Source: a virus. From it: a DNA stretch of 39,438 nucleotides. This document shows positions 15,891-31,709 of this stretch, one piece after another. The stretch's first letter is position 1; each line of letters begins with the position of its first letter. Location: the IMG/VR virus record IMGVR_UViG_3300031999_000082, positions 1 through 39,438 of that record; one strand, 5' to 3'. Under the pieces are notes generated by a model. It was not told the origin of the DNA. It was given only the letters and a program-made list of their open reading frames with translations, and made no database searches. Position numbers and translations under genes: made by a program.

Positions 15891-16049
15891 ATGAAAGTCA
15901 TCAAGGTAACGAAAGAGTATTTTCAGACAGAGGACGAGAAGGTTTATTTCTTTGAACCTTTGGAAAAAGAAATATCCGTTGAGGATATGCAGAAGATTGT
16001 GGATGCAAACGAGAAATTAGTTAAGGAGTTGAAAGATGCCCAAGATTGA
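15891..16049 (+). CDS. Small protein paired with the methyltransferase
   Basis: 52 aa: MKVIKVTKEYFQTEDEKVYF, then FEPLEKEISVEDMQ and a helical tail. AAAGGAG precedes it. It overlaps the methyltransferase start by 14 nt, so the two are coupled and may act together. The beta-hairpin-like start and acidic helical end suggest a compact domain. No named family. Confidence 0.55.
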   Translation: MKVIKVTKEYFQTEDEKVYFFEPLEKEISVEDMQKIVDANEKLVKELKDAQD

Positions 16050-16755
16050 ATTGATACAAGGCGATTGCTTGGAAAAAATGAAAGATGTTAATGATAAAAG
16101 TATTGATATGATACTTTGTGACTTACCTTACGGAACAACCGCCTGTAAATGGGACACTATCATACCTTTCGAGCCACTTTGGAAGCAATATAAGCGAATA
16201 ATAAAAGACAACGGGGCGATAGTATTAACAGCATCTCAACCTTTTACGAGTGCTTTAGTGATGAGTAATATCAAGATGTTTAAGTATGAGTGGATATGGG
16301 ATAAAAAAATACCAAGCGGAATGTCTTATGCAAGATTTCAACCAATGCGACAACACGAGAATATATTAGTATTTTGTAATGGAAAAACTATTTATAATCC
16401 TCAAATGATAAAAAGAGATAAACCAATAAAAGGTGGTGGAATGTCAAAAGGGGAAACAACTAACAACCAAAACCTCGTAGCACTCAAAAAGACATACGAT
16501 TATAAAAATCCAACTACAATAATAGTTGAAGATAAAATAAGAAAAGATAGCCTCCACCCCACCCAAAAACCAGTAGCCCTATTTGAATATCTTATCCGCA
16601 CATATACCAACGAAGGTGAAACGGTTCTTGATAATTGTATGGGTTCTGGAACGGCTGGAGTTGCTTGCAAGAATCTCAATCGGAACTTTATCGGAATAGA
16701 GTTAGACTCCGAGTATTTCAAAATTGCAGAGAAGCGAGTAAATGAAAATCTATAA
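16036..16755 (+). CDS. DNA adenine/cytosine-N4 methyltransferase, beta class
   Basis: 239 aa. Motif IV, CDLPYGTTACKWD (about residues 28-40), comes first and the S-adenosylmethionine loop NCMGSGTAGVACKNLNRNFI near residue 207 comes last: the beta-class order. HPTQKPVALFEYLIRTYTNEGETVLD is the usual motif X region before it. It would methylate exocyclic amino groups in a short DNA sequence; the target cannot be read from the sequence. There is no partner restriction enzyme, so it is an orphan, probably protecting phage DNA or regulating. It overlaps both neighbours. Confidence 0.9.
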   Translation: MPKIELIQGDCLEKMKDVNDKSIDMILCDLPYGTTACKWDTIIPFEPLWKQYKRIIKDNGAIVLTASQPFTSALVMSNIKMFKYEWIWDKKIPSGMSYARFQPMRQHENILVFCNGKTIYNPQMIKRDKPIKGGGMSKGETTNNQNLVALKKTYDYKNPTTIIVEDKIRKDSLHPTQKPVALFEYLIRTYTNEGETVLDNCMGSGTAGVACKNLNRNFIGIELDSEYFKIAEKRVNENL

Positions 16756-17359
16756 AATCACAGAAGCAAGCGATTATCTCGGCGTGTCAATAAACACTCT
16801 CAAGACGCTTGCCAACAACGGAAAGATAAAATCTTTCAAGACTACTGGTGAGCATAGGCGTTTTCGTCAGGAAGATTTAGACGCTTACATGGGAGTCGAG
16901 AAAGAGAAACAAGAAAAGTTGACTGTGATTTATGCCCGTTGCTCTACCGCCAAACAGAAAGAGAATCTTGAACGGCAGAAAGACAGGTTAAGAAAACACG
17001 CAGCAGCCAAAGGTTATAAGTATGTTTTGATTGATGAGATTGCCAGCGGGATAAACGAGAAGCGGAACGGCATACACAAGTTAATCAAGATGTGTTTTGA
17101 GGGTAAGGTTGAACGAGTGCTGATTGAATACAAAGACAGACTTGCACGATTTGGTTATGAGTATCTTGACGCAATCTTTACGAATCTTGAAATTGAAGTA
17201 GAGATAATGGAAACCAAAGAGAAGAAATACGAAGAAGAATTGGCAGAGGATATTATGAAAATTCTTACCTGCTATTTAGCGAGATATTATGGTGCAAGAG
17301 GTGGCAGGAAAAAGAAAAATCAGGTTGAAAATGTGCCTGTCGAATCTAATGGAATTTGA
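16742..17359 (+). CDS. IS607-type serine recombinase (TnpA-like)
   Basis: 205 aa. A MerR-like helix-turn-helix at the N-terminus (YKITEASDYLGVSINTLKTL, then TTGEHRRF) precedes a resolvase domain with catalytic Ser68 in IYARCSTAKQKENLERQ and the later RLARFGYEYL motif. This domain order is specific to IS607 transposases, which integrate a circle at short GG-type cores. TnpB, which normally follows, is absent: the next gene starts at 17374 and is unrelated. The start overlaps the methyltransferase by 14 nt. Full length and apparently intact. Confidence 0.9.
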   Translation: MKIYKITEASDYLGVSINTLKTLANNGKIKSFKTTGEHRRFRQEDLDAYMGVEKEKQEKLTVIYARCSTAKQKENLERQKDRLRKHAAAKGYKYVLIDEIASGINEKRNGIHKLIKMCFEGKVERVLIEYKDRLARFGYEYLDAIFTNLEIEVEIMETKEKKYEEELAEDIMKILTCYLARYYGARGGRKKKNQVENVPVESNGI

Positions 17360-19771: not shown

Positions 19772-20122
19772 ATGTCTTGGATCAGATATGAAGTAAAAAG
19801 AAAGATTCTTCCAACTGATGTAATTAGAATGTCAAAATCAGAGATTCAGTTTTCTACTAATATTTGGTTGAAGTATCTTAAAAGATCAGAATTTATTGGA
19901 TTTCTGTTTGATCCTGAAACCAATCAAATAGGATTAGTCCCCTGTGATAAAAGAGGGGGTTTAAAGATTTCTGAGAGAAGGGAGGTTTGTAGAGCAATGT
20001 GGGGAGGATTTCTGAAGCAGTTTAATCTCTTTTTTGAAAAACCTGAAGATTATAAAATTCAATCTGCTTTAGAGAATAAAACTATGTTAGTAATAACTCT
20101 AAATAAAAGGAGTTCAAAATGA
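19772..20122 (+). CDS. Protein of unknown function in the replication block
   Basis: 116 aa with AAGGAGG before the ATG. It is a mixed alpha/beta sequence without Cys clusters or catalytic signatures; it contains FIGFLFDPETNQIGLVPCDK, a beta-hairpin-like stretch. The stop overlaps the next start by 4 nt (ATGA). Its place between the helicase and a TS-fold gene suggests a nucleotide or replication role, but nothing in the sequence shows it. Confidence 0.5.
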   Translation: MSWIRYEVKRKILPTDVIRMSKSEIQFSTNIWLKYLKRSEFIGFLFDPETNQIGLVPCDKRGGLKISERREVCRAMWGGFLKQFNLFFEKPEDYKIQSALENKTMLVITLNKRSSK

Positions 20123-20847
20123 GGATATATTCTTCAGTGCTAGAAGCAGTGAAAGAGATAGAGAGAGATTTATTTGAAATGGGGATAGAAAATCAAGCGC
20201 CCACGGTCCAGGATATTGCTGTAAGAAATAATCCTGATTATAATTCGAAAGAACTTCCAGGATATTCCTATATGATTACTCGATTTGATGATTTACAAGA
20301 TATATTTAGATTTTTCTTTGAAAATAAAGAAGATCGTATTTCTGCTATGCTTTATTCACAAGCTGAGTTAGAGGATAGATTTTATGGGTTAGGATTAAAT
20401 CCCGGAAATTCTTGGGCTTGGAGAGCTGACTATTGGAGAAAGTTTTTGAAAGAAGGAAAGTTTTCATACACATATTCAGAGAGAATGTATTGGCAACTTG
20501 GTTCTATTTTTAATGAGTTGTCTGAAGCTAAAGGATCTAGACAGTGTATTATAACAATATATGATTCTTGTAAAGACCTTAAAAATTTAAGAGGCAAGGC
20601 TCGCATTCCTTGTTCAATGTATTATCAGTTTCTTAGAAGAGAAATTTCTGGGAAGGACTCTCTTATGCTTATTTATACTATGAGGTCATGTGATTTCTAT
20701 ACTCATTTTCCAATTGATGTTTGGTTAGCTATTAAATTAGGACAGTATATAGCTAATCTTTTGAAAATAGATTTTTATAACTTCACACACTTTATTGGAA
20801 GTCTTCACGCATTTGCTAAAGACTATGAGAGAAGAAGGATCTTCTAA
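20119..20847 (+). CDS. Divergent thymidylate synthase/hydroxymethylase-fold protein A
   Basis: 242 aa. The C-terminal two thirds follow the thymidylate synthase pattern: YSERMYWQLGSIF, GSRQCIITIYD (about 139), nucleophile Cys165 in RIPCSMYYQF, RSCD (189-192) and HFIGSLHAFAKDYE (about 224). Where TS has PFNI, this protein has PIDV, placing Asp200 at the Asn position that selects dUMP. In T4 dCMP hydroxymethylase the same Asn-to-Asp change favours dCMP. It may thus methylate or hydroxymethylate dCMP. It lies between the helicase gene and a second TS-fold gene, and close to dCMP deaminase. Substrate is inferred. Confidence 0.75.
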   Translation: MRIYSSVLEAVKEIERDLFEMGIENQAPTVQDIAVRNNPDYNSKELPGYSYMITRFDDLQDIFRFFFENKEDRISAMLYSQAELEDRFYGLGLNPGNSWAWRADYWRKFLKEGKFSYTYSERMYWQLGSIFNELSEAKGSRQCIITIYDSCKDLKNLRGKARIPCSMYYQFLRREISGKDSLMLIYTMRSCDFYTHFPIDVWLAIKLGQYIANLLKIDFYNFTHFIGSLHAFAKDYERRRIF

Positions 20848-21035
20848 TGCCATTTAAAGAAACTAAGAAGGTAGAATTTAATGTGAATCAGGTGATAGAG
20901 GCTTTAGAGAAGTATTCAGGATTAAAAATTTATATTGAAGGAGTATATGTGGCGGATCTCACCCACCAGTGGGATCCTGTTTTTAAAGAAATAGGGATGG
21001 GCGGTGTAATGACGGTTGTCTGTGAGGTTGAATGA
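20847..21035 (+). CDS. Small protein between the two TS-fold genes
   Basis: 62 aa, linked to both neighbours by 1-nt and 4-nt overlaps. It has a helix (VNQVIEALEKYSG), then beta strands (KIYIEGVYVAD, GGVMTVVCEVE). It may form a small alpha/beta domain. No family recognised; its position suggests an accessory to the nucleotide-modifying proteins. Confidence 0.5.
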   Translation: MPFKETKKVEFNVNQVIEALEKYSGLKIYIEGVYVADLTHQWDPVFKEIGMGGVMTVVCEVE

Positions 21036-21871
21036 ATAGAAAGAATTCTTTGAGCTATTGCTCTTGTGGATATAATGGAAAAGAAGGTTGGGATCTATGG
21101 GTGGCAGGTCCTAAAGGTATAAAAAAGGGAGATAGAAATGGATCTTTCTGTCCTTACTGTGGAAAGGATCAAGCAGAAGTGATAACTACCCCGTTAGAAA
21201 TGTGGAAAAATCTCTGTTATTTTCTCTATAATGAGGGACAAAATACTGAAAAGTATGATATTCAGGCTACTTGTAGGTGGAACGACTTTGATTTAGATCT
21301 CTCAGATATTGGATATAGAAAAGGAGGAATTAATAAGAGAAAAAATTGGCTTGAGATCTATATAAATCCAGAGGAAGTTGAAAAGTTTAATAGAAATCTT
21401 AAGGAAGTTAAAGCTAAGAAAAAGACTTTTGTTCTTCTTTTCAGATTTGGGAACCGGGAGAAATCAAGATTTAACAATATGAGAGATTTCTGCTTGATTG
21501 GAGCTACTTTTAGATTTGAGAGAGGAAAATTGAAAAAGGTGAATATATATTATCGAGTTACAGAAGGGGTTACCAAATTCCTGGCTGATCTAATTCTGTT
21601 GGGGGATTTCTTCCAAACTTACTTAGAATCTTTAGATATTAATGGAGTTAAAGTGGAATTTTATTTTACTAAAGTTTACACTAGGTATTTTCATATCATA
21701 ACATTCTATCGAGTCTGTTCTAAATTGTTTAATGAGGATGTAAGACCTAAGTTAGGAAAGTGGGCTCAGGACTTAATAGAGAATGTCCTTGATAGAAAGA
21801 GAAAATTCAAGTACTGTGCAGCTAAAAGGCTTGCTAAAAGTTTTCTGGAGGGTGAGGATGAAAAAACCTAA
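21032..21871 (+). CDS. Zinc-ribbon protein with a second TS-like domain (protein B)
   Basis: 279 aa. The N-terminus has CSC and CPYC (Cys10, 12, 40, 43), a zinc ribbon absent from ordinary thymidylate synthases. The C-terminal half can be laid on the TS pattern: Cys154 in MRDFCLIGATFRFERGKL at the nucleophile position, Arg175 in IYYRVTEG where TS has R-S-x-D, then FYFTKVYTRYFHI near the H-x-Y region. The match is weaker than for protein A, and the Asp of RSxD is Glu. It could be an inactive partner or a TS-family enzyme on another base. It overlaps both neighbours. Confidence 0.5.
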   Translation: MNRKNSLSYCSCGYNGKEGWDLWVAGPKGIKKGDRNGSFCPYCGKDQAEVITTPLEMWKNLCYFLYNEGQNTEKYDIQATCRWNDFDLDLSDIGYRKGGINKRKNWLEIYINPEEVEKFNRNLKEVKAKKKTFVLLFRFGNREKSRFNNMRDFCLIGATFRFERGKLKKVNIYYRVTEGVTKFLADLILLGDFFQTYLESLDINGVKVEFYFTKVYTRYFHIITFYRVCSKLFNEDVRPKLGKWAQDLIENVLDRKRKFKYCAAKRLAKSFLEGEDEKT

Positions 21872-22178
21872 AATAATTTGTCTCTGTGGTTCTACTCGTT
21901 TCTGGAAAACATTCAGAGATGTAGGTCTAAAATTAACTCTCCAAGGTAAAATTGTTTTATCAATTGGGATATGTGCTCCTGATTCTAAAATTTTAGCTCA
22001 TCCCAATAGTCCTCATGGGAAACTCCAAAAACGGAGGCTTGATGAACTCCACAAAAGAAAAATTGATCTTGCTGATGAAATTTTAATTTTGAATGTTGGT
22101 GGTTATATTGGAGAATCAACTAGAAATGAGATTGAATACGCAAAGACATATAGGAAGACTATTCAATATCTTGAATAA
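21858..22178 (+). CDS. Nucleoside 2-deoxyribosyltransferase-like protein
   Basis: 106 aa. It opens with KIICLCGSTRFW, a Rossmann-like GSTRF loop. The core LDELHKRKIDLADEILILNV and GYIGESTRNEIEYAKTYRK matches the small phage proteins related to nucleoside deoxyribosyltransferases and SLOG folds, including the D-E-I-L/ST-x-x-E active-site region. It may cleave or exchange N-glycosidic bonds of nucleotides, as part of nucleotide salvage or modification. It starts inside the previous gene with GGAGGGTGAGG before the ATG. Confidence 0.7.
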   Translation: MKKPKIICLCGSTRFWKTFRDVGLKLTLQGKIVLSIGICAPDSKILAHPNSPHGKLQKRRLDELHKRKIDLADEILILNVGGYIGESTRNEIEYAKTYRKTIQYLE

Positions 22179-22191
22179 AAGGAAGTGAAAA

Positions 22192-22626
22192 ATGAAAAGA
22201 CCTAGCAGAGAAAAATGCTTAATGGAAACAGCTAGAATCTGGAGTGAAAGAGGAACTTGTCCTAGGGGAACTGTAGGAGTGGTTTTAGTAAGAGATAACC
22301 GAATTATTTCTATTGGGTATGCAGCTAGTCCCCCTAGAGAGTCACATTGTATTGATATAGGATGCTTAATACGATCCTCAGAAGAAGGTTGTATAAGAAC
22401 TGTCCATGCAGAAATTAATGCTATTCTATTCGCAGCAAGACAGGGAATTTCAACAGAGGGGACTACTTTATATACAACACTATCTCCCTGTTTTAGATGT
22501 TGTCAGGTTATCCTTTCAGCAGGGATTTCTGAAGTAATCTATCTGGAGGAATATCGAGATAAAATAGGATTAGAATATCTAAGGGAAAGAGGAGTAAAAG
22601 TCAGTCAGTATGTAGATGAAATATAA
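22192..22626 (+). CDS. dCMP deaminase
   Basis: 144 aa, the usual family length. The zinc-dependent cytidine/deoxycytidylate deaminase signatures are VHAEINAIL (zinc His plus catalytic Glu) and SPCFRCCQVIL (two zinc Cys). An extra Cys/His-rich segment between them (SHCIDIGCLIRSSEEGC) is typical of dCMP deaminases. It converts dCMP to dUMP, feeding the TS-fold enzymes and dUTPase product pool. GGAAGTG precedes the ATG. Confidence 0.9.
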   Translation: MKRPSREKCLMETARIWSERGTCPRGTVGVVLVRDNRIISIGYAASPPRESHCIDIGCLIRSSEEGCIRTVHAEINAILFAARQGISTEGTTLYTTLSPCFRCCQVILSAGISEVIYLEEYRDKIGLEYLRERGVKVSQYVDEI

Positions 22627-22873
22627 AATGACTAGATTAAGCAAAAAATCACAGATGATAGGAAATTTAGAAATAAGCTTCTGGTTTGATGAACTAGATG
22701 GTTTATGGCATACTTGTATTAAACAGTGGAAGGATGATGAATGGGTTGTAGTAGAATCTGCCCAAAGTTTAAGAAAAAAGTTAGTAGAAGAGATGTACAA
22801 CCAAAATATACAATGGGCTGAAACACTTTTTAACAAGAAGGAAGCTGTAATAAATCATGAAGAAGCTATTTGA
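22616..22873 (+). CDS. Small protein of unknown function
   Basis: 85 aa, overlapping the dCMP deaminase end by 11 nt and the polymerase start by 17 nt. It has a beta-rich first half (NLEISFWFDELDGLWHTCIK) and a helical C-terminus. A second Met at residue 5 could be the real start. No family recognised. Confidence 0.5.
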   Translation: MKYKMTRLSKKSQMIGNLEISFWFDELDGLWHTCIKQWKDDEWVVVESAQSLRKKLVEEMYNQNIQWAETLFNKKEAVINHEEAI

Positions 22874-25193
22874 TATAATAAGAGATGAAGATTGTACTCG
22901 TTGTGGCTTATATAAAGAAGCTCAGCTAACTTGTTTAGTGGGGGATGGACTCTATCCTGCGGAAATCATGCTGATTGGAGAGGCTCCAGGTTGGAGAGAG
23001 GAAGATTTAAGGAAACCCTTCTCTGGAAAAGCAGGAAAGCTCTTAGATAAGATTTTAGTCTCAATTGGGTTAGACAGAGAAAATTTATTTATTTCCAATG
23101 CTGTTCGCTGCCGACCAACTGATAATCGTACTCCTAAAATAAAAGAGATTGAAGCCTGTAGATACTTTTTGGATAAAGAAATTAAGTATGTTAAGCCAAA
23201 AAAGATTATTGCTATGGGTAAGTCAGCAATACTTGGGCTTTATGGAGATAAGGATTTTAAAATTGAAACCATGAGAGGAAAAGTGTTTGAATATAAGGGG
23301 ATTAAAGTCTATTCTACATATCATCCTGCAGCTGCTCTTAGAAGGCCGTTTCTTACTAAAGTGATTAGAAAGGATTTGAAGAATTATATTCTGGGAGTAG
23401 TTAATGGAAATGGAAAGCCAGTTAAATACAAAGACATAACTACTGAATCTCAATTTGATTGGCCTCCTAAAGTTGCTATTGACCTAGAGTGGGATATTCC
23501 GACTAGAGTAGTTAGAACAATGGCTTTTTCCCCTGCAGCTAGAGAGGCTTATTTTGTAGAGTCTCCAGAAAGGTATAAAAATTCAATAAGAAATTTTTTA
23601 GAAAACTCTTCTTATTTGAAGATAGGACATAACTTAAAATCAGATTTAAAAATTTGTTTGAAAGAAGGATATATCCGGGAAAAGTATCTTCCAGATAATG
23701 ATTTCTTCTGTACGATGATAGCCTCTAATGTTCTCGATGAAAACTACCTTCAAAAAGATCTAGAACATTTAGCGACTATGAATACTTCCATGGAAAGATG
23801 GAAGACTGAAGAAGATTTTGAATCTATAAAAAAGTTAAGAATTAGAAATTTAAAGGATGCAGACGCTACTAAGAGACTCTACAATGTATTCTCAAAGAAA
23901 ATTACAAATGAACACCTTGAAATCCCTTTTAAGATAGATATGGATATGATGAAGGTATTGATTTCAGCAGAAGTTCATGGAATAAAAATTGATACTAAAG
24001 AGTTAAATGATTTAGATTTCGAATTGACAAAGAAGATAAAGAAGATGGCAGCTAATATTCCTGCTAATCCTGGTTCAAATAAGCAGCTTACAGAATATTT
24101 TAATTTTATGAAAATAAGAAGCCCAGAAAATACAGGGAAAGGAGTCCAATCTTGGGGGAAAGAAATTCTCTTAAAGTTATCAGGGGAGCTTGAGGGAAAA
24201 AGAAAGGGGGCCGTTGATGCCGTTATTGAATACAAAAAATTATTTGGGATTAAAAGTAAGTTTCTGGATAATTTATCTAAGTTTCTGGATTCTGAAGATA
24301 TGGTTCATCCAGTATTCAATCAGGTTAAAGCGATCGGTGCTGAATCTGGTGATGAAGAGGGTACTGTAACTGGTAGGCTTTCTTGTAAAGATCCTCCACT
24401 ACAAACTATCCCTCGAGATAGAGAAGATCTTCCAAGAGAGATAAATCCTAGAAGGTTGTTTGTTCCTGTGGATCCAAAAGGATTTATATTAACTGGAGAT
24501 TATGAACAGATCGAAGTAAGAACTTTAGCCCATGAAAGTGGAGATAAAGCTTTAATAGAATACTTAAAGAAGGGAGATATTCATAGAGCAATCGCTGCTG
24601 AAGTTTTAGAGAAGCCCCCGGATAAAGTTACTAAGGATGAGAGAAAGAACGCTAAAAAAGTAACTTTTGGTATTATATATTTGATTAGTGCTTATGGTTT
24701 GGCTTTAAGACTAGGCTGTAGTAAGGAGAAAGCTGCTAAGTATATTCAGAATTTTTATAAAGCTTTTCCAGGGACTGAAGATTGGCAGAGTTCATCAGAA
24801 TCTGAGATAATTACTAATCAGCAGATTGTGAATATGTTTGGGCGGGTAAGAAGACTTCCTGGGGCTACTAATGAAACTGCAATTGGAAGAAGTTTAATCC
24901 GACAGGGGGTGAACTTTCCTAATCAAGGAGGGGCTGTTGATATAGTTAAGGTTGCTATGTTTAAAATATTTAGAGACTTAATTAAAGAGGGGGCTAGATC
25001 TAGAATTTTCGAAAATGTCCATGACGAGATAGGAGTTTGTGGTTATCCAGAGGAAGAGAAGGACGTAATAAAAATAGTAAAGAAAAGGATGGAAAATCCT
25101 GGGCTGGAAGAATATGGAGTTAAGCTTAAGGTGCCATTGAGGGCTAAACTTAGTATAGGCCCCAACTGGCTTGAAGTAAAAGAAATAAACTAA
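22857..25193 (+). CDS. Uracil-DNA glycosylase-DNA polymerase I fusion
   Basis: 778 aa. Residues 1-180 are a family 4 uracil-DNA glycosylase: GEAPGWREEDLRKPFSGKAG, NAVRCRPTDNRTP, TYHPAAALRRP, and iron-sulfur Cys13, 16, 84, 100. Residues 200-340 are a 3'-5' exonuclease (AIDLEW, GHNLKSDLK, DADATKRLY). The rest is a family A polymerase: GRLSCKDPPLQTIP, motif A DYEQIEVRTLAHES, motif B RKNAKKVTFGIIYL, motif C VHDEIGV. In motif B the Gly after the conserved Tyr is Leu, and the Asn before Phe-Gly is Thr. It is the replicative polymerase, with uracil checking built in. No 5' nuclease domain. Confidence 0.93.
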   Translation: MKKLFDIIRDEDCTRCGLYKEAQLTCLVGDGLYPAEIMLIGEAPGWREEDLRKPFSGKAGKLLDKILVSIGLDRENLFISNAVRCRPTDNRTPKIKEIEACRYFLDKEIKYVKPKKIIAMGKSAILGLYGDKDFKIETMRGKVFEYKGIKVYSTYHPAAALRRPFLTKVIRKDLKNYILGVVNGNGKPVKYKDITTESQFDWPPKVAIDLEWDIPTRVVRTMAFSPAAREAYFVESPERYKNSIRNFLENSSYLKIGHNLKSDLKICLKEGYIREKYLPDNDFFCTMIASNVLDENYLQKDLEHLATMNTSMERWKTEEDFESIKKLRIRNLKDADATKRLYNVFSKKITNEHLEIPFKIDMDMMKVLISAEVHGIKIDTKELNDLDFELTKKIKKMAANIPANPGSNKQLTEYFNFMKIRSPENTGKGVQSWGKEILLKLSGELEGKRKGAVDAVIEYKKLFGIKSKFLDNLSKFLDSEDMVHPVFNQVKAIGAESGDEEGTVTGRLSCKDPPLQTIPRDREDLPREINPRRLFVPVDPKGFILTGDYEQIEVRTLAHESGDKALIEYLKKGDIHRAIAAEVLEKPPDKVTKDERKNAKKVTFGIIYLISAYGLALRLGCSKEKAAKYIQNFYKAFPGTEDWQSSSESEIITNQQIVNMFGRVRRLPGATNETAIGRSLIRQGVNFPNQGGAVDIVKVAMFKIFRDLIKEGARSRIFENVHDEIGVCGYPEEEKDVIKIVKKRMENPGLEEYGVKLKVPLRAKLSIGPNWLEVKEIN

Positions 25194-27819: not shown

Positions 27820-28365
27820 ATGTCTTATTATATTTGTAAGAGATGTGGAATAAAAGTTGACTACGATGAAACAGTTTGTGGAACTCCAGAAGATTTACTT
27901 TGTGAAGATTGTTATTCAGAGACGAATGACCCAGAAGGAGGGAAAATAATGAACATTACTGACATTAAGAAAATAATAAAAGTAGATGGAGAGGATAAGC
28001 TGGATGTGATCTTTGCTGTCCAGAAGAAGTTGAAGGAGAAGTATGATTGTATTGAAAGGATGAAAGGGATCTATGTCCCAGTGATGCCTTTGGATATTAA
28101 TGAATGCAGGACGCAGTATTTTTTAAAGGATATGTTTTTTAGAATAATAACCGAATTGGTTGAAGCTTCCGAGTGTTTGCGTAATAAACCCTGGAAACAG
28201 AGTGAAGTCTTAGTAGATCACGACCACTTAAAAGAGGAGATTTCAGATTCAGTGCATTTTCTAATTGAATTATGTATTTGTTTAGGAATATCATCTGAGG
28301 AATTTTTCCAGCTTTATTTTAAGAAATCAGAAGTGAATAAGTGGAGGCAACTAACTCAATACTAG
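27820..28365 (+). CDS. Dimeric dUTPase-like protein with N-terminal zinc ribbon
   Basis: 181 aa. Residues 1-35 are a zinc ribbon (CKRC, CEDC). From about residue 44 an all-alpha NTP pyrophosphatase domain follows, with FRIITELVEASECLRNKPWK, HLKEEISDSVHFLIELCICL and KSEVNKWRQ. The E-x-x-E and D-x-x-H helices and the final K-x-x-x-N-x-x-R are the signature of dimeric dUTPases. It would hydrolyse dUTP to dUMP, both keeping uracil out of DNA and feeding TS-type enzymes. A Met at residue 44, also behind GGAGGG, could give a form without the ribbon. Confidence 0.75.
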   Translation: MSYYICKRCGIKVDYDETVCGTPEDLLCEDCYSETNDPEGGKIMNITDIKKIIKVDGEDKLDVIFAVQKKLKEKYDCIERMKGIYVPVMPLDINECRTQYFLKDMFFRIITELVEASECLRNKPWKQSEVLVDHDHLKEEISDSVHFLIELCICLGISSEEFFQLYFKKSEVNKWRQLTQY

Positions 28366-31088: not shown

Positions 31089-31709
31089 TTGAATAAGAGT
31101 AAAACTTCTCGCCAGAAGTATTTGACAGAGGATGAATATAAAAGACTCTTAGGAGTTATCAGAAATGAAAGAGACTACGTTTTATTCTTTCTATGTGGGA
31201 ATCTTGGGTTAAGGGTTGGGGAGCTCGTGAGGTTAAGGGTATCTGATATTATGAAGGATGAGACGGGATTCTATTTAAAGATTCCTACATTGAAAAGAGG
31301 GGGAGTTAAAGGTAAAGTGAAAGGATCTATCCAAAGGGGAGAACTTCCTAAAGCTTACGAGGATATTCCATTATCATCAGACCTGGCTTCAATACGAGAA
31401 ATCCTTAGTAAATATATTTCAAAGTATAAAATAAAGGATTGGATCTTTCCTTATAGAGGGTTACATATCCCTGAATATACGGTAGCTAGATACTTCAAAT
31501 CCTATGCAAGAAAGGCGGGAATGGATCCTCGTTATAGTATTCATTCCTTAAGACATTTCAAAGGGTTCTATACTTATAAGATGAAGACTGACCTTAGAGC
31601 AGTTCAAATACTTCTTAGGCATAGAGATATAAGGACTACAGCTATCTATGCCGATGCTAATTTAGATTCTAAAAGAAAGATTGTTGAGGGACTTGAACTC
31701 TTCAGATGA
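31089..31709 (+). CDS. Tyrosine recombinase (short form)
   Basis: 206 aa from a TTG behind GAGGAG. Catalytic signatures are present: Arg42 in GNLGLRVGELVRLRV, HSLRH with the second Arg, LLRHRDIRTT, and the nucleophile Tyr in TAIYADANL. It is short and lacks the usual N-terminal core-binding domain, as do some phage and archaeal integrases or dimer resolvases. It could act in genome resolution or integration. No att site is recognisable next to it. Confidence 0.85.
   Translation: MNKSKTSRQKYLTEDEYKRLLGVIRNERDYVLFFLCGNLGLRVGELVRLRVSDIMKDETGFYLKIPTLKRGGVKGKVKGSIQRGELPKAYEDIPLSSDLASIREILSKYISKYKIKDWIFPYRGLHIPEYTVARYFKSYARKAGMDPRYSIHSLRHFKGFYTYKMKTDLRAVQILLRHRDIRTTAIYADANLDSKRKIVEGLELFR

Follow-up and report, generated by a model that had tools for sequence, protein, structure and literature searches.

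A dCMP-type thymidylate synthase-superfamily enzyme and a linked second TS-fold protein in putative phage nucleotide-modification loci

Phage T4 makes hydroxymethyl-dCTP by a route that comprises a dCTPase, the dCMP hydroxymethylase gp42, a dNMP kinase and a dCMP deaminase, and the module described here consists of the same kinds of enzyme. AfhB (RB69p048) is a dCMP 5-hydroxylase, or 5-hydroxy-dCMP synthase, that adds the hydroxyl group with flavin (PMC13390438; titles of PDB entries 9iqu and 9iqc). MilA, a CMP hydroxymethylase (PDB 5jnh, 5b6d), combines the thymidylate synthase (TS) fold with a cytosine substrate, which in its case is a ribonucleotide (PMC5175136). In the portion of the MetaGPA study considered here (PMC8670742), positions 177 and 147 are the top two that separate the TS proteins of cytosine-modified from those of unmodified contigs, and the modified-contig TS co-occurs with dCMP deaminase and pyrophosphohydrolase domains, as our module does; the route given there uses a carbamoyltransferase, and that portion mentions no second TS-fold partner.

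Here we compare with these systems a locus in an IMG/VR virus record whose entire sequence, 39,438 bases, is referred to below as the window. An earlier note on this DNA had pointed to two neighbouring TS-fold proteins, A and B, as possible makers of a modified pyrimidine. TS sites are numbered as in E. coli.

The A–B locus and its distribution

The relevant features of the window are the following.

20119–20847, + strand: protein A, 242 aa, dCMP-type TS-superfamily enzyme (PF00303, 8.9e-11; phrog_160, 6.9e-20; AF2 model; conservation in 85 sequences)
20119–20847, + strand: key residues of protein A, namely Cys165, Ser166, Asp192, His196, Asp200 and His230
20611–20613, + strand: codon of the nucleophile Cys165 of A, kept in 85/85
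20716–20718, + strand: codon of Asp200 of A, counterpart of E. coli TS Asn177, kept in 85/85
20847–21035, + strand: 62-aa ORF between A and B, no family match
21032–21871, + strand: protein B, 279 aa, divergent TS-fold protein with its core at about residues 50–230 (AF2, Foldseek, VIA, profile-profile comparison)
21032–21184, + strand: N-terminal 51 aa of B with a Cys-x-Cys...Cys-x2-Cys ribbon, in this copy only
21491–21493, + strand: codon of Cys154 of B, kept in 73/73
21587–21589, + strand: codon of Asp186 of B, aligned with Asp200 of A and counterpart of TS Asn177, kept in 73/73
21783–22178, + strand: ORF, putative deoxyribosyltransferase-like, without a significant family match
22192–22626, + strand: dCMP deaminase (PF00383, 6.4e-22; phrog_174, 4.5e-47)
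22857–25193, + strand: DNA polymerase A with 3'-5' exonuclease and an N-terminal uracil-DNA glycosylase domain (PF00476, 1.8e-83; PF03167, 7.9e-28; PF01612, 1.1e-7)
27820–28365, + strand: dUTPase_2/MazG-type nucleotide pyrophosphatase (PF08761, 1.3e-6; phrog_12184, 2e-26)

Genes A and B lie where the earlier note had placed them, and the 62-aa ORF between them overlaps both the stop of A (TAATG) and the start of B (ATGA). This ORF is missing from the closest relative, locus L027, whose B is 52% identical and begins right at the stop codon of A. The dCMP deaminase gene that had been noticed close by starts about 0.3 kb past B (PF00383, 6e-22). What had been called a nearby dUTPase is a pyrophosphatase of the all-alpha dUTPase_2/MazG type about 6 kb downstream, and probably the dCTP/dUTP pyrophosphatase of the module. 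The proposed resemblance of ORF 21783–22178 to deoxyribosyltransferases found no support in the family searches, and a search of the window for a dNMP kinase gave no match.

Several other features of the window deserve mention. The uracil-DNA glycosylase domain is fused to the DNA polymerase A of a phage that also encodes a dCMP deaminase. Just upstream of the replication genes, at 16036–17359, a DNA N6/N4 methyltransferase gene (PF01555) is directly followed by an IS607-type transposase gene (NF033518, 7.7e-54). A short integrase-like ORF of 206 aa (31089–31709; PF00589, 3.7e-23) suggests that the phage is temperate or once was, despite its nucleotide-modification module.

The usual gene order in loci of this kind is dNMP kinase, dUTPase_2-type (dCTP/dUTP) pyrophosphatase, B, A, dCMP deaminase and DNA polymerase A. 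Among 78 distinct A loci, which are mostly fragments, 67 contain the dUTPase_2-type pyrophosphatase, 30 the dCMP deaminase and 23 the kinase. The gene set of a T4-like modified-cytosine pathway, comprising a putative dCTP pyrophosphatase, a dCMP-modifying enzyme, a dNMP kinase and a dCMP deaminase, is thus present across the loci, and the assignment of the neighbourhood to this type of nucleotide pathway is supported. T4, in contrast, has a glucosyltransferase, and none was seen adjoining the A–B pair.

Well over 100 phage sequences contain the pair. B lies near A in 58 of the 78 loci (74%), on the same strand in 58/58, and the gap between the genes is at most 12 bases (touching) in 19 of these and at most 400 bases in 44. 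The phages concerned include PMBT14, Almagne, Serbin, Yersinia P744, Brevundimonas Strzyga, Desulfofustis MD02, Gordonia GTE2, Streptomyces Zuko and Mycobacterium phage Muddy (B is gp47, A is gp46). Muddy and Gordonia, Streptomyces, Pseudomonas and Serratia phages with the module have been cultured, and the Muddy-type B is carried by 85 actinophage records. The association of B with a dCMP-type TS spans phages whose hosts differ widely. A GroES-like Cpn10 gene (for example L087, 10977–11351) also occurs in 23 of the 58 A–B loci.

A stands without B in 20 of the 78 loci, and in 19 cases B is absent from the complete record. A search for B in the full records of these 19 A-only viruses and of T4 and RB69 found none, the only hits being weak ones to RB69 AfhB itself and to a gene that by its position is the A gene of its record; A of the window has a partner that T4 gp42 and AfhB lack. 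The reverse arrangement, B without A, was not seen in 18/18 phage records or in 13/13 B-seeded viral loci, B relatives having been collected from genes beside A. Since A was found without B, whereas the records examined held no B lacking A, the product of A is most likely what B depends on, and this asymmetry favours a second-step or accessory role for B over that of an obligate partner. A search of viral contigs with the B protein of the window returned no relative. Bacterial genome contigs were scanned for A with no match, which says little, as the scan used a single 7-residue pattern.

Some loci depart from the simple pair. Two different B genes are present in L100, L087, L025, L031, L037, L041 and L097, the A gene of L100 having, in addition, a canonical Asn-type TS as a neighbour. 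Two large phages that lack B have another TS-like protein of the Asp type next to A (L052, 8596–9534; L089, 9368–10300); it has no counterpart of His207 and a long C-terminal part.

The B-less loci carry other genes beside A. A C5-cytosine-methylase-like gene (PF00145) is found in 6 of 20 B-less loci versus 0 of 58 with B (p 1.5e-4), and an asparagine-synthase-like gene (PF00733) in 7 of 20 versus 0 of 58 (p 2.9e-5), both values being uncorrected for shared ancestry. Loci with the former include L003, L035, L051, L073 and L103, and in the first three the methylase-like gene fills the slot of B, between the pyrophosphatase and A. This pattern suggests that second-step genes are interchangeable, the methylase-like protein being a possible alternative second step. 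The asparagine-synthase/class II amidotransferase gene occurs in the B-less loci L045, L073, L080, L099 and L104, and hints at a carboxyl-bearing cytosine that gets amidated.

Protein A as a dCMP-type enzyme

Protein A matches PF00303 with 41.9 bits (E 8.9e-11; family cut-off 24.3), and its AF2 model, built like that of B as a single chain, has a pLDDT of 96.6. In VIA comparisons the model is closest to AfhB (9iqc, Z 23.2), followed by MilA (Z 22.2) and E. coli TS (about 20.9); MilA has a longer chain and is about 18–19% identical to A. In an alignment of 85 A sequences, Trp106, Tyr119, Arg141, Arg162, Cys165, Arg189, Ser190, Asp192, His196, Asp200 and His230 are invariant. Four of these positions define A as a TS-superfamily member, since they supply the nucleophile (Cys165), the phosphate-binding Arg (Arg189), the folate-contact Asp (Asp192) and the counterpart of His207 (His230). 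The nucleophile, the RSxD motif (Arg189-Ser-Cys-Asp192 in the window copy), the C-terminal His and the Asp in place of Asn had all been described in the earlier note, and each proved invariant.

In total, A has counterparts of E58, W80, Y94, R126, C146, R166, D169, D177 and H207. A dTMP-forming TS has Asn at 177, where A has Asp200 in 85/85, and residue 166 of A, the equivalent of His147 in ThyA, is mostly Ser or Thr. A therefore shows both of the marks given in the consulted portion of MetaGPA, an Asp at 177 and a changed 147, just as the modified-contig TS does (PMC8670742).

The residue pattern of A is that of T4 gp42, with Asp at 177 and the folate-side Glu60, Trp82 and Asp: the two proteins are equal at the E60, W82, Y96, Cys, Asp179, Arg, Asp and His sites, and in the proteobacterial and actinobacterial branches of A a His takes the place of the folate-side Glu. 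Compared with gp42, A has Arg162 for Asp, lacks most of the TS C-terminal tail, stops about 20 residues before the gp42 end, and carries the invariant His196 where gp42, a canonical phage TS and PaMx11 gp51 (used purely as a comparison sequence) have Gly. AfhB shares with A and B the Cys, Arg and Asp at sites 146, 166 and 177 but has lost the counterparts of E58, W80 and D169 that A keeps. The AfhB-type pattern, in which Asp169 is replaced by Asn and Trp80 is gone, is our own reading of the RB69 sequence and no published criterion; A differs from it in having both Asp192 and Trp106 (each 85/85).

In a FastTree phylogeny, A, T4 gp42, RB69p048 and two further Asp-type proteins cluster together (0.97), apart from a canonical TS and PaMx11 gp51, with weakly supported branching within the cluster. 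The assignment of A as a dCMP-type TS-superfamily enzyme is thus supported. Its reaction may differ from that of gp42, because AfhB, which adds a hydroxyl group with flavin, is the nearest solved relative in both sequence and structure and because His196 is invariant where gp42 has Gly.

Protein B as a divergent TS-fold family

Protein B matched no family in Pfam, PF00303 included, or in NCBIfam. PHROGs holds its relatives as two families of unknown function, 34294 (matched by B of the window, of PMBT14 and of Serbin) and 13667 (matched by Muddy gp47), which in the libraries searched are linked neither to each other nor to the TS fold. The AF2 model of B has a mean pLDDT of 84, mostly above 90 over residues 51–270, and is predicted to adopt that fold: Foldseek matched it to 9iqu at E 4.2e-5, VIA aligned it to the same entry with Z 11.5 and an rmsd of 4.3 over 181 residues, ahead of MilA (10.5, with 10% identity) and ThyA (9.7), and the best 50 VIA rows were all TS-superfamily structures. 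The superposition that had been proposed as a check on the two proteins thus placed both on the TS fold, and a non-TS fold for B, which would have spoken against the proposal, was not found.

A comparison of the profiles of 73 B and 85 A sequences gave E 5.7e-7 and a probability of 92%, an earlier one with small alignments having been weak (33%). The match pairs Cys154 of B with Cys165 of A and Arg175 with Arg189, at the places the earlier note had matched, and also Asp186 with Asp200. The note had overlooked this last residue, so that the Asn-to-Asp change it ascribed to one protein holds for A but is present in B as well. A HMMER search of the B profile against 9iqc paired the same Cys, Arg and Asp in a weak match (E 0.08). 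Asp186 lies exactly 11 residues past Arg175, a spacing equal to that between R189 and D200 in A and between R166 and N177 in E. coli TS.

The 73 B sequences are highly divergent, and only Tyr110, Cys154 and Asp186 are invariant in them, with Arg175 kept in 69. In TS a helix follows Tyr94, and since Tyr110 stands immediately ahead of that helix it is taken as the Tyr94 counterpart, an assignment based on the order of secondary structure elements rather than on coordinates. The residues that in TS serve folate, partner and 3'-OH contacts (Asp169, Arg126, His207) are not retained: B has Glu178 at the Asp169 site in 53/73, no conserved Arg at site 126, and Tyr216 or other residues at the 3'-OH His site. 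This pattern indicates that B has kept the nucleophile and the cytosine-type nucleotide residues and has lost the usual folate and partner residues, and the fact that Tyr110, Cys154 and Asp186 are the sole invariants would argue for a working pocket. On the evidence of the predicted structure, B is a TS-fold family that has no name in the libraries searched and that appears to have retained its pocket.

The new zinc ribbon that had been described in B is present as cysteines C10, C12, C40 and C43 in a segment modelled with low confidence (pLDDT blocks of 38–54 for residues 1–50). It was not seen in other B proteins, including that of L027, and therefore appears to be a local addition; as it occurs in one copy only, we rejected it as a defining part of B. 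Of the original interpretation, a dCMP-type A, a linked second TS-fold protein and a modified-cytosine-type neighbourhood have stood up. The ribbon is not a feature of the family.

We also considered whether B might be a relative of RB69p047, the neighbour of AfhB, and rejected this since RB69p047 has no B match. The gene adjoining the AfhB-like gene in RB69 (L107, 8493–9662) is annotated as 'peptidase' and seems to be of the U32 type. The U32-type proteins are a group that includes oxygen-independent hydroxylases.

Proposed roles of A and B

We tentatively read A and B as two members of an enzymatic route by which phage DNA acquires a modified cytosine, a reading that we judge to fall a little short of probable. 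Within it, A most likely makes a 5-substituted dCMP, probably the 5-hydroxymethyl form, and B carries out a second step on that product, so that the pair would probably make an altered cytosine by a step not described before. From the observed conservation, linkage and module content, together with the predicted folds, we infer the substrate, cofactor, product and order of action (A, then B) and the modification of virion DNA. The dUTPase_2-type pyrophosphatase would convert dCTP to dCMP, which A would bind, reading the cytosine face with Asp200. Cys165 would attack C6, and methylene-tetrahydrofolate would donate a one-carbon unit to C5; the resulting 5-substituted dCMP would most likely be 5-hydroxymethyl-dCMP. 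B would be a slimmed TS-fold enzyme that keeps the nucleotide-handling core (Tyr110, Cys154, Arg175 and Asp186) and appears to have given up the conserved cross-subunit Arg, the folate-contact Asp and the 3'-OH His of TS. In the chemistry that we propose for B, the enzyme most likely takes up the dCMP-type product of A, forms the C6 thioether anew and performs the second step at C5. A dNMP kinase and the phage polymerase would place the product in DNA, and the dCMP deaminase would supply the dTTP side. Literature searches for DNA modification in pair-bearing phages (including Muddy, GTE2, PMBT14 and Serbin) returned nothing on point, and a search for a paper describing the A–B pair found none.

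Several observations weigh against this two-enzyme route: touching genes (19/58) would suit a complex, the window has no dNMP kinase match, AfhB as the nearest solved relative of A adds a hydroxyl group and not a one-carbon unit, and His196 of A replaces the Gly of gp42. The touching genes belong to the main rival, in which A and B form a heterodimer that carries out one reaction only, B tuning specificity or helping to close the active site of A. TS enzymes form dimers whose active sites are shared, Arg126 of one subunit extending into the site of the other, so such a heterodimer is conceivable given how often the genes touch. On this reading A, lacking most of the C-terminal tail, would be unable to close its site alone; A keeps Arg141 (85/85) and B has no conserved Arg there, so A could complete the site of B, and the pair's uniform strand is as expected for subunits. 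B is nevertheless missing from 20 of the 78 A loci, and from 19 whole records, so A must work without it; a purely structural B would also have no need of the nucleophile and pocket residues that it conserves, and some loci hold two B genes. We consider the heterodimer unlikely, but a serious contender.

A bolder form of the two-enzyme route, which we regard as rather unlikely, is that B is a TS-fold enzyme that has ceased to use folate and subjects 5-substituted dCMP to a new step of covalent catalysis, yielding a new cytosine base. For example, 5-hydroxymethyl-dCMP might be dehydrated to a 5-methylene species and then trapped by another nucleophile or by hydride.

Alternatively, the pathway could lead to 5-hydroxy-dCMP, with either A or B acting as a flavin-dependent monooxygenase (the hydroxylase) in the manner of AfhB from phage HY126/RB69. 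Both by structure and by profile, AfhB (9iqc/9iqu) heads the PDB matches of the two proteins, and B resembles AfhB in having no folate-contact Asp of the TS kind. The folate-side Trp106 and Asp192 that AfhB has lost are retained in A, however, the profile match of B to AfhB is the weak one noted above, and the pair, in contrast to RB69, comes without a sugar transferase, which leaves this reading improbable.

Still less probable is a joint synthesis of 5-methyl-dCMP in which A provides the methylene group and the hydride comes from B or from a flavin, sparing folate from oxidation. 5-Methylcytosine is known from Xp12-like phages, and AXL1, a relative of these, has genes for TS, dCMP deaminase, pyrophosphatase and DHFR (PMC9206674). 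A search of 44 module records found no DHFR, which weakly supports a reaction without folate oxidation; it is weak evidence because the host has a DHFR of its own. No cofactor site was identified in B.

That A is an ordinary thymidylate synthase, as most records annotate it, and B an unrelated neighbour is very improbable: A has Asp at 177 throughout, B is a linked TS-fold homologue, and several phages with the module also encode ThyX or a canonical TS, so that A is not needed for dTMP and was rejected as the dTMP synthase of the phage.

Two unnamed protein families, one of them present in Muddy, a phage used in patients, are here linked to a known kind of cytosine-modification pathway, and a second TS-fold gene with an intact-looking pocket of its own is seen to adjoin the dCMP-type enzyme. 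If B is a second-step enzyme, it would represent a new use of the TS fold, and if it is a subunit, the pair would be a heteromeric TS. Were the folate-free reading of B true, many actinobacteriophages, Muddy included, would carry a cytosine base not yet described. If cytosine is modified in Muddy or in the Gordonia phages, this would bear on restriction, on CRISPR resistance and on actinobacteriophage genetics.
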